Source: Gammaproteobacteria bacterium (GTDB lineage: Bacteria; Pseudomonadota; Gammaproteobacteria; Magnimaribacterales; AG-339-G14). From it: a stretch of 64,000 bases of DNA. The stretch spans positions 1-64,000 of the forward strand of contig QOPF01000005.1 in assembly GCA_003331625.1 (NCBI GenBank), given 5' to 3'. Below, piece by piece: positions 1 to 3,345 of this stretch (position 1 is the first letter of the stretch; each line of letters starts with the position of its first letter). Position numbers and translations under genes: made by a program. The notes under the pieces were generated by a model. That model searched no databases. It worked only from the letters and a program-made list of their open reading frames with translations, and was not told the origin of the DNA.

Positions 1-126
1 AATAGCCTCAATTTCACCTTGCAAACCAGTAATGGTAGATGTCGAAGTTCCAGAAGAGCTGGATCCAGATCCACAGTTCACTAGAAGTACTGATAACGCA
101 AATAAACAAAAAAATAGACGGAACAT
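1..126 (-). CDS. Putative lipoprotein, N-terminal part only (runs off window)
   Basis: An open frame runs from an ATG at 126 to the window edge, giving 42 codons with no stop. The N-terminus is a typical lipoprotein signal: a short positive start, a hydrophobic run, then a lipobox-like L-L-V-N-C with the Cys at residue 18. A Ser/Gly/Thr-rich linker follows. A GGGAGAA ribosome binding site lies just upstream. It is the next gene downstream of the 982-residue secreted protein, beyond a terminator hairpin, so it probably has its own promoter. The body of the protein is outside the window and its function cannot be named. The lipoprotein call rests on the signal alone. Confidence 0.6.
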   Translation of the reverse strand, partial: MFRLFFCLFALSVLLVNCGSGSSSSGTSTSTITGLQGEIEAI

Positions 127-163
127 AATTTTCTCCCAAAAAATAATTAAGACTAGTTTACAT

Positions 164-190
164 TAAAAAAACCCTTCTTTAAGAAGGGTT
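164..190 (-). terminator. Intrinsic terminator after the 982-residue secreted protein gene
   Basis: The arms ACCCTTC (171-177) and GAAGGGT (183-189) enclose a 5-base loop. On the minus strand the hairpin is followed by a run of seven T (plus-strand A at 164-170). It lies 22 bases past the stop of the 982-residue gene. T residues also flank it on the plus strand, so it could act in both directions. Confidence 0.75.
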
Positions 191-211
191 TTTTTTGGAT
201 AAGTACAGTCT

Positions 212-3160
212 TTAATTAGAAGGTGTAATTACCGTTTTTCCATGGATTACAGAAGGATCCGTACTACCTGCCGACGGTATAGTAGTCGCTAAAACATTAC
301 CAATTGAATTTGTTCCAGAAAATAAATCCTGAATATTACTCGATGCTGGAAAAGTGGCTGGAGGAGTTGTGTAACTTACATTGTTATAAGGAGGATTTAA
401 TTTAAGTAAATATTCATCACCCCTTAGAGCTCTTATTTTAAGATCGTCTCCACCGCTTACATTTGTGAGCACGGTTCCATCCGGAATGACAAATTCATGT
501 ACGTAACGATAACATTCGTTCCAACCACCAGTTACATATCTTCCTAATATTGCTCCAGTACAAGTATTTACAACTTTTCCAGGAATATTATGCAGCTCTC
601 CATAGCCTTCAAATTTTAATTTGAATTTTTTTCCTGCTAAATTTGTCCCAGCAAAGTTGTAAGTAATACCAGAAGCCGGAACGGTAAATACAACATTTTG
701 AGGCGCAGTTACATTTACGAACTGACTCGTTGTGCCGTTGTACAACCTATAATCAGGCATTTGCTTAATTCTAATATCGTATGTTGTTGCTACTCCTTCA
801 TTCATTTTATTCTCACAATAATATGAAGCAGCACCAGTAGCATGCATTGATGCATTATCATCTTTGGCTCTATATCTGACGTTATAACCTCTTGCATTAC
901 CTCCAGAAGTATCGCAAAGAAGTGCCGCTTTGTTAGTATCGGAATTAATTACAGCTCGCATGTGAAAAGCCCAGCCAAAACTATTTGTCCAGTTGTTGTT
1001 GTAAGTTGCCGGTTTCATATAAAAACGATAGTTTTTTAAATTATCGTCATGGTTTCTTGCATCAACTTTAGGCTGGTTGGTACCGTTATAGTCCATATAA
1101 GTTGTACCGGCAGTACCATCCCTAAGTTTATTAGTACCACCAATATTAACAACGGTGTATTGCGGTGCATCGGCTACTTTAATGCCGCCAATATTATTAT
1201 AATTACCTACAGCGATATCTGCTTCTCCACCTTCTTGGTCTCCATTACCGTTTGCGTCGTAATAAACCGTTTCTGTCCACCAAGCTCCTATATTTTTATA
1301 AGGAGTAACACTTAATGGACCCGAAGAAGCTTCAGCTGCTACAGCAGTAAAGGCAGCATCAATAGCTGAATTCATGTTTGCTGCATCAAGACACTCTCTT
1401 ATGCACAATAATCCTGTTGCATTATCACCAGTAGTAGAAATTTCTGTAGCCAATGTATCGATACTTATTCGTTCTTCTGTTCTTGTACTTACTTGAGAAG
1501 AATTAGATGTAGAATCGGGATCAGCAAAGGCAGCATGAGGAATTGAGTAACTCTGATGCGAGTCAGGATCCCAGAAATGCATTCTTCTATTCCAGCCTGA
1601 ATCGGTCATTTGAGTAGCCCAATTAGCAGCAGTAAAAGAGAAAGGAGTAGTCAATTCAAAAGGCGTTTTTGGAGGTGTTGCTCCCCAGTCCATGCCATGA
1701 GTGACAGTAAAAGTTACGGTACCACCACTGACAGATATTGTTCCTGAATATTCAGGACAGTTACCTTGTGATGTATTACATGAGCCAGCATTTGGAAAAT
1801 TAAGATTGCCTAACTTTGTTTGGAAGGTTCCCCCGTCTCTAAAATTATTAGCATAAAATTGAAAAGAAACTCCACCCAGTTGGTCTAAAGCTAGATACTG
1901 ACGGGTTCTTTTAACAACCTCATAATAATTTTTCTTTAAATTATATTCGTTGTTATCACTTGAATCTCTTTTGTTCTTAAATATAGTTGAATCACTCACA
2001 TTCGTTCGATCGGAGGGATTAACGTGCACTCCCCAATAACTTGCGTGAGACCAGATAGGATTAGTGAGCGAATTATCGGTTGTATTAGCTTCCAAAGACA
2101 TTGATGGTGTTGTTAAGTCAGCTCTAGAACCATCAGAATTTTTATAAGTTCCATATTCGTAAATAACTCTTTTTGCTTGAGATCTACTCGTATTCCAACA
2201 ATGTTCACCTGCGATAGTTGCTGAGGTGCCTCCATCAGTCTGGATGAAACCCCCGCCATTTTGAGCATTTGTAATTGCTGTAGCAAGATCAGATTCAGTT
2301 ATAGCTGAACCTTCGGTCCAAAGGCCTGTGCCACCTTGAGAATATGCATTGGCACTTATAAATTTTTGACAATACCTATCAGAGCCTTCATTGACCTGAA
2401 CTTGATGTCTGACCCCATAGGTTGTAGATCCTCCTCCAGTAGCAATTCTAAGAATAGTTTGCATATGACCTTGAATATTATTAGCGTTGGCTAAATCAAC
2501 AACAATAATTCTATCCGGACCTTGCATGCCTGTTTCTCGATATTCGATGGTTGTATTATCAACCTTTAAATATCCTTGATTTACAGCAAGATTAGCTTGC
2601 GGTAATCCAGCACTATTATTTGCAGCTTTATTCCTTAGATCATAACGCATAATGAATGAACCAAATCTATTGGTTGCGCTTTTATCTGCCGTTACCTCAG
2701 TTGAGATCAGAGCCGTAAAAGGGACTTCAATATCATTTTGCATTTCCATGTTTATATCAACCCAACCTTTACCAGTAACCGTACTACCTGAAGTAACTCC
2801 TTGATAAATACCAGGAGTATACTCAATTGCATCCACCGTATTAGCAGCAGCTCCGCCCCCACTATCTGCAGAACCACCAGTTGCTGAGGCAGCATCTGCT
2901 GAAGCATCAGCCCCACTGGCTGACTCGCATTTGGCTTCATCTACAAGGGCTTTATAAACTCCTTTGTCTACAAAAGTAGAAAAATTGATACTTTCCATAA
3001 AACATAAAAGGAAATTAACCTGACCCATTGCATCGTTTGCTAAGATGCCAGGAACATAATAATCAACCTCTGTTGCGTCATCGTCATAAGCTGCAGCAAA
3101 AATCGAGTTGATTCCAAACATAGATATTAAAATTAAAAAAAGTGTTTTTTTAAAGTTCAT
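212..3160 (-). CDS. Large secreted protein of unknown function (982 aa)
   Basis: I do not recognise a named family. The protein starts with a clear Sec signal peptide of about 22 residues (M-N-F-K-K, hydrophobic core, F-A-A-A-Y) and has no later obvious membrane segment, so it is probably periplasmic or outside the cell. About residues 75-105 form a low-complexity Ala/Ser/Gly/Asp linker. The rest is rich in Asn, Thr, Gly and aromatic residues, as in beta-structured extracellular proteins. About a dozen Cys are scattered, several as near pairs (for example L-L-C-I-R-E-C-L), which suggests disulfides. A 53-residue lipoprotein gene lies 23 bases upstream on the same strand and a terminator follows, so the two look like one transcript. 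Base composition appears somewhat richer in GC than its neighbours. An adhesin-like or substrate-binding role would be a guess. Confidence 0.85.
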   Translation of the reverse strand: MNFKKTLFLILISMFGINSIFAAAYDDDATEVDYYVPGILANDAMGQVNFLLCFMESINFSTFVDKGVYKALVDEAKCESASGADASADAASATGGSADSGGGAAANTVDAIEYTPGIYQGVTSGSTVTGKGWVDINMEMQNDIEVPFTALISTEVTADKSATNRFGSFIMRYDLRNKAANNSAGLPQANLAVNQGYLKVDNTTIEYRETGMQGPDRIIVVDLANANNIQGHMQTILRIATGGGSTTYGVRHQVQVNEGSDRYCQKFISANAYSQGGTGLWTEGSAITESDLATAITNAQNGGGFIQTDGGTSATIAGEHCWNTSRSQAKRVIYEYGTYKNSDGSRADLTTPSMSLEANTTDNSLTNPIWSHASYWGVHVNPSDRTNVSDSTIFKNKRDSSDNNEYNLKKNYYEVVKRTRQYLALDQLGGVSFQFYANNFRDGGTFQTKLGNLNFPNAGSCNTSQGNCPEYSGTISVSGGTVTFTVTHGMDWGATPPKTPFELTTPFSFTAANWATQMTDSGWNRRMHFWDPDSHQSYSIPHAAFADPDSTSNSSQVSTRTEERISIDTLATEISTTGDNATGLLCIRECLDAANMNSAIDAAFTAVAAEASSGPLSVTPYKNIGAWWTETVYYDANGNGDQEGGEADIAVGNYNNIGGIKVADAPQYTVVNIGGTNKLRDGTAGTTYMDYNGTNQPKVDARNHDDNLKNYRFYMKPATYNNNWTNSFGWAFHMRAVINSDTNKAALLCDTSGGNARGYNVRYRAKDDNASMHATGAASYYCENKMNEGVATTYDIRIKQMPDYRLYNGTTSQFVNVTAPQNVVFTVPASGITYNFAGTNLAGKKFKLKFEGYGELHNIPGKVVNTCTGAILGRYVTGGWNECYRYVHEFVIPDGTVLTNVSGGDDLKIRALRGDEYLLKLNPPYNNVSYTTPPATFPASSNIQDLFSGTNSIGNVLATTIPSAGSTDPSVIHGKTVITPSN

Positions 3161-3183
3161 ATTAATTCTCCTAAAATATTTAT

Positions 3184-3345
3184 TTAATCAGTTGCCTGTA
3201 CAGGATCTACCTGACCTGCAAAACTTCCCAAGGGAGCATTTCCTCCAGCACCGGTTGCTCCAGAGCCACCGGAAGCAGTACCACCACCGCCACCACAAGA
3301 AGCTAGGAAAACAAGCAAAAATAAAATTCCTAATATATTTTTCAT
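3184..3345 (-). CDS. Small glycine-rich lipoprotein (53 aa)
   Basis: This frame encodes 53 residues. The start is Met-Lys-Asn-Ile-Leu, then a hydrophobic run ending in F-L-A-S-C, a good lipobox with the Cys at residue 17. A Gly/Ser/Ala-rich tail ends in Q-V-D-P-V-Q-A-T-D. An excellent Shine-Dalgarno sequence (AAGGAGAG) precedes the ATG. The mature part is only about 36 residues and looks unstructured, so it may be a surface anchor, a lipoprotein spacer or a partner of the large secreted protein encoded 23 bases downstream on the same strand. Function is unknown. The signal, the binding site and the position argue that the gene is real. Confidence 0.7.
   Translation of the reverse strand: MKNILGILFLLVFLASCGGGGGTASGGSGATGAGGNAPLGSFAGQVDPVQATD

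Follow-up and report, generated by a model that had tools for sequence, protein, structure and literature searches.

A small lipoprotein and a large secreted protein of a SAR86-order bacterium as the probable two pieces of one tethered envelope protein

Two neighboring genes at the start of the analyzed stretch of DNA (the window, i.e., the initial 64 kb of contig C7 in an assembly of 1.09 Mb, window base 1 being contig base 1) probably encode the two pieces of a single protein that is tethered to the outer membrane, with the tail of a 53-residue lipoprotein docking on a 982-residue secreted protein. The latter and its homologues are referred to here by the working name F0. The small lipoprotein would be exported, lipidated at the cysteine of its lipobox and put in the outer membrane, with its Gly/Ser linker serving as a flexible leash. 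Its conserved tail would dock non-covalently on the separately exported, disulfide-stabilized F0, which would then be retained at the cell envelope, probably on its outer face. We infer docking, outer-membrane placement, surface exposure, the export route and a structural or binding role of F0.

The F0 gene (212-3160, minus strand) encodes a protein with a signal-peptide-like stretch at the N-terminus of its translation. Judged by F0, the closest named relatives (76-78% identical) are SAR86 cluster bacteria. The alignment of 48 relatives has ten invariant columns (C53, C78, W133, G167, G196, C321, Y336, G377, C586, and C590), with the five cysteines kept in 48/48 sequences. Among these relatives, none of the invariant columns holds His, Asp, Glu, Ser, or Lys; D28 and N49 come closest with 40/48 each. 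Invariance is confined to Cys, Gly, Trp, and Tyr, without any acid, base or non-Cys nucleophile, which suggests that F0 after its signal peptide is a disulfide-braced structural or binding module rather than a catalytic one.

The initial annotation had described a secreted protein of no recognizable family, and this description holds: the ORF is real and no confident profile match was found. Family membership required a score exceeding the curated Pfam or NCBIfam cut-off, or a significant E-value with PHROGs. The best Pfam match of the window's F0 was NigD_N with 14.8 bits, under the cut-off of 24.3, and NCBIfam and PHROGs gave no match. Nothing exceeded the Pfam cut-offs for 26 F0 members (best E-value 0.034), nor the Pfam and NCBIfam cut-offs for seven relatives outside SAR86. 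Searches against PDB profiles yielded best E-values of 0.083 for the protein, 0.44 for the 26-member alignment and 2.6 for a 9-row alignment of non-SAR86 relatives. Fimbrial profiles run against the 26 members gave no match above cut-off, the best being FimA with an E-value of 0.037 in one member. PsbO, NigD_N, and MRJP/FimA were dropped as identities of F0, as their sequence matches are weak. Furthermore, the family is not named in the titles and abstract openings listed by literature searches on SAR86 and on surface or anchoring lipoproteins.

An AlphaFold2 (AF2) model of the entire F0, built from seven sequences, was useless (pLDDT 34.7), and a model of residues 316-605 reached a pLDDT of 62.3. 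Its sole fairly modelled part is a beta-rich block of residues 415-565 (1466-1918, minus strand), with block pLDDT values of mostly 57-92. These two weak models gave best VIA Z-scores of 4.7 and 3.5, respectively, and Foldseek E-values of the domain model started at 0.079 against PDB, the best PDB value obtained, and at 0.049 against viral models. Weak lipocalin/streptavidin/FABP-like or methyltransferase matches of the domain model (Z ≤ 3.5) were taken as noise.

The small lipoprotein gene (3184-3345, minus strand) precedes F0, as the initial annotation had reported for a Gly-rich lipoprotein. It starts with an ATG at 3345, its stop ends at 3184 and the F0 start follows 23 bp past it; counted from an upstream TTG the product would have 58 amino acids. 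Shine-Dalgarno-like AGGAG stretches can be read upstream of both ORFs. The protein (MKNILGILFLLVFLASC-GGGGGTASGGSGATGAGGNAPLGSFAGQVDPVQATD) comprises a signal peptide, the lipobox LASC, a GGGGG and Ser/Gly linker and a C-terminal tail; by pattern, the signal peptide followed by the lipobox cysteine (FLASC-GGGGG) marks it as a bacterial lipoprotein. Its match to NF058595 (invert_tail; 14.9 bits, E-value 0.026, cut-off 37) covers residues 6-34, outside the tail.

The tail, GSFAGQVDPVQ followed by ATD (residues 40-53; 3187-3228, minus strand), is conserved in the tail alignment and is proposed as the docking element. It was scored with leave-out matrices, i.e., matrices built without near-identical tails. 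As high a score as that of the window's tail was reached by one of the 319 control C-termini and by none of the 200 shuffles. Over all cases, the tails scored above 95% of the 319 control C-termini in 50/52 and above 95% of the shuffles in 45/52. Across all loci examined, a tail score of at least 10 was reached by 53 of the 59 lipoprotein-like ORFs near F0 vs. 4 of the 283 elsewhere, a comparison which is not independent, as the matrix was trained on those tails, so that the leave-out test is closer to an independent one. Five of the six low-scoring ORFs near F0 are, by inspection, inside F0 frames or chance-looking frames. All four hits elsewhere adjoin F11 (512-574 amino acids), a distant F0 relative which the F0 profile recognizes in part. 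The tail pointed to F11 partners that the F0 profile had overlooked.

The arrangement of the two genes recurs outside the window. Altogether 83 distinct F0-family ORFs were collected; 17 are flagged as having their own lipobox, three are fragments or have open ends and L089 was removed because of its open 5′ end, which leaves 62 stand-alone genes. With near relatives taken separately in this count, a tail-bearing gene lies directly upstream of F0 in 60 of these 62 cases, all of them with an intact 5′ end, and it was thus borne out that lipoprotein and large protein genes stay together elsewhere. Because 60/62 stand-alone homologues keep the arrangement, chance is excluded for the gene pair of the window. 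The upstream partner consists of a lipobox, a Gly/Ser linker or stalk and a conserved C-terminal tail of 11 residues; the lipobox is unseen in three of the 60 partners (L122, L056, and L129), whose start lies off the contig. In 59/60 pairs the stop of the partner is located within -14 to 48 bp of the F0 start, and in one (L072) the distance is 222 bp. No lipoprotein was found within the 7 kb examined for two close F0 orthologues (L118 and L119).

F0 relatives were found in 33 of 101 relatives. The F0 profile recognized 41/203 genomes of the order (the SAR86 order) and F0 was present in 18/369 genomes of the class, including the own genome and G016; a second profile found it in 8/398 genomes of the phylum, own genome included. 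Complete F0 frames range from about 460 to 2461 amino acids, and several genomes carry two or three tandem F0 genes. Apart from the lipoprotein, no neighbor is conserved across genera: F0 lies on the clpA side in the genus of the window and next to acyl-CoA/SDR genes in another genus. As to a phage or plasmid origin, no F0 was found in the collections of viral contigs and phages, nor in plasmids, the latter being queried with one fused relative (L082). Two F0 C-terminal remnants, G034:C3:22271-22471 and a 143-residue ORF in L022, one of them with internal stops, are probably decayed paralogues.

In other Proteobacteria, lipobox, linker, a motif (e.g., GLQMPSSMSVV), a variable stretch and the F0 module are found in one polypeptide. 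Such fused proteins comprise the 17 ORFs flagged with their own lipobox and the motif-bearing L089, whose 5′ end is cut. Split relatives in G401, G337, G152, G331, and G792 have lipoproteins of 56 to 58 amino acids. When scored with the matrix of stand-alone tails, the junction motif outscores every other segment of the fused protein in 8/11 cases and ranks second in 2/11, with that of L085 ranking 48th; this ranking and the other better figures come from a reweighted matrix and another background, and with an earlier split-tail matrix the fused motif was first in just 3/11. A matrix of fused motifs only gives the window's own tail a score of -2.9, with an overall AUC of 0.78. As this matrix misses the tail of the window, the window's clade is linked to the fused motif via intermediate tails. 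A similar stretch (LTLGTNVSVVD) was seen by eye in the fused proteins of f212.

In a tree of 54 rows, three switches between the split and the fused state are needed, and well supported (starred) branches force two of these. The tree results from a short search, has some long branches and does not indicate whether the split or the fused state is older, but it requires at least two separate changes. The pairing, the fused homologues and these changes of state are best explained by taking the small lipoprotein for a detached anchor of F0 that docks via its tail. That the lipoprotein may anchor or help to display the large protein was already suggested by the initial annotation. Of this, the anchor is backed by the tail and, far more than by adjacency alone, by the fused homologues, while display at the surface is to be regarded as presumptive.

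The segment between lipobox and tail is variable, being a bare linker, a cupredoxin-like domain or a stalk of 350-900 amino acids, while the tail persists. The cupredoxin-like stretch (YYYC..HSGMGG) was recognized by eye in partners. Short lipoproteins carrying it as YYYC.NHSGMGG, also noted by eye, are encoded at L044:12871-13407, L051:8268-8792, and L052:15375-15896 and are F0 partners in some genera. A 577-residue lipoprotein with a cupredoxin-like stretch was also found at L042:3247-4980, not adjoining F0. The one long stalk tested has an Ig-like Pfam match. The longest pair found (L131:456-10195) consists of a 794-residue stalked lipoprotein followed by a 2453-residue F0 relative. The tail TGSIPEKIEVVEAE is common to G016 and G034, where it is carried by partners of 65 and 174 amino acids. 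G006 and G013 each have three tandem paralogues with a different tail on each, and in the second and the third of them the tail matches that of the corresponding paralogue in the other genome. In a more far-reaching interpretation, which we hold plausible if somewhat short of probable, the leash with its lipid anchor would act in trans through the 11 residues of the tail, completing or clamping a large extracellular module; the stalks would be interchangeable (none, cupredoxin-like or long Ig-like), and the chain would have been joined or broken at the same point repeatedly in evolution.

Downstream of F0, a symmetric hairpin flanked by A/T (165-195; fold -16.5 kcal/mol, z -4.9) separates two units and is a probable bidirectional terminator. 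It was not listed by a simple terminator scan, apparently because its A/T runs are absorbed into the stem. Beyond it, the ORF running from 126 to 1 (minus strand) encodes the truncated lipoprotein (...GSGSSSSGTSTSTITGLQGEIEAI) of a next lipoprotein and F0 unit. It aligns with the lipoproteins ahead of the second F0 in L037 and L039, with 0/500 shuffles reaching the score for either. The second Ser/Gly-rich lipoprotein after a terminator, as initially annotated, is real and the hairpin does lie between, but the ORF leaves the contig at base 1, is incomplete and starts the next unit instead of flanking this one. Since the lipoprotein of a next unit is present and no second F0 was found in the own assembly, a second F0 gene, with a product of about 1040 amino acids, is predicted in the contig gap.

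The T2SS exports folded, disulfide-bonded proteins and is, for this reason, the favored, possible candidate for the export route of the pair. A gsp operon is present in the own genome. Pfam profiles confirm C, D, E, and K of this operon; the matches of L and N stay under their cut-offs, and the assignment of F, G, and the minor pseudopilins is by inspection. In G152 the lipoprotein/F0 pair directly follows gspK-L-M-N on the same strand. GspK matches occur in 96/203 genomes of the SAR86 order vs. 41/203 for F0, counts which are rough, as PF03934 also matches control genomes without obvious T2SS; for the same reason the gsp operon of the own genome was read directly. As GspK is more widespread than F0, the T2SS was ruled out as an F0-specific marker. 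A search for SlipAM gave no match in the own genome, the control being likewise empty, and SlipAM-type genes are located near F0 in G004 and G013. Next to F0 in these two genomes and beside the SlipAM-type gene lies a gene for a 1222-residue FecR/cadherin-type protein (L054:45-4799; L055:11244-15731). Its match to a TbpB-like barrel is weak, and it may form a Slam cargo pair with the SlipAM-type gene.

Small lipoproteins can also be helpers, as exemplified by LptM, and the partner of F0 could be an assembly factor for folding, disulfides or exit of F0, which would then be released. Its size, similar to that of LptM-like helpers, and the conserved cysteines of F0 would fit such a role. We regard it as unlikely, as in the fused homologues the same lipobox and tail are covalently part of F0, so that anchoring is the end state there, and as partners with cupredoxin-like or long Ig-like stalks are unlike small chaperones. 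If the tail were instead an export or sorting signal for a secretion machine, its position at the lipoprotein C-terminus would be accounted for, as would the T2SS in the genome and next to the pair in G152. However, the tail is absent from 279/283 other lipoprotein-like ORFs of the loci examined, the four exceptions being partners of an F0 relative, it is internal in the fused proteins, and for paralogues two and three in G006 and G013 its type tracks the paralogue and not the genome, which makes this explanation very improbable. The question whether F0 is a secreted enzyme, e.g., a hydrolase with an unrecognized active site, concerns the module itself and is compatible with a tether. Many T2SS-exported lipoproteins are enzymes, but only Cys, Trp, Gly, and Tyr occupy invariant columns in the 48 relatives, with no His, Asp, Glu, Ser, or Lys among them, and no enzyme family was matched, so that there is little to recommend an enzymatic F0.

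The putative detached anchor resembles several known systems in part. Pullulanase is a single-chain surface lipoprotein exported by type II secretion; lipoproteins of this type likewise have a lipid anchor and an exported module at the outer membrane, and a T2SS operon is present in the genome, whereas in the F0 system anchor and module are two genes and the T2SS is a candidate carrier. In fimbrial anchor subunits with strand donation, a separate lipoprotein anchor docks on secreted subunits. Here, too, the secreted protein would be held through a short segment of a lipoprotein encoded on its own, but F0 has no fimbrial profile above cut-off and no sign of polymerization. The NCBIfam "choice-of-anchor" domains share with F0 one extracellular module with varied anchoring; however, no such model matched F0, and a single anchor type occurs, either fused or detached. 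Slam-dependent lipoproteins are surface lipoproteins, as the F0 system would be, and in G004 and G013 F0 has a SlipAM-type gene in its vicinity; the difference is the missing SlipAM match in the own genome, with the reservation of the empty control.

If the reading of the small lipoprotein as the detached anchor of F0 is right, an uncharacterized family of large envelope proteins, found in 41/203 genomes of the SAR86 order and scattered over other Proteobacteria, becomes tractable as a two-part system of a short peptide tail and a socket. It would constitute a natural peptide-protein attachment pair, for which the fused relatives provide a built-in test, and would give an insight into how the surface of a streamlined ocean bacterium is equipped.
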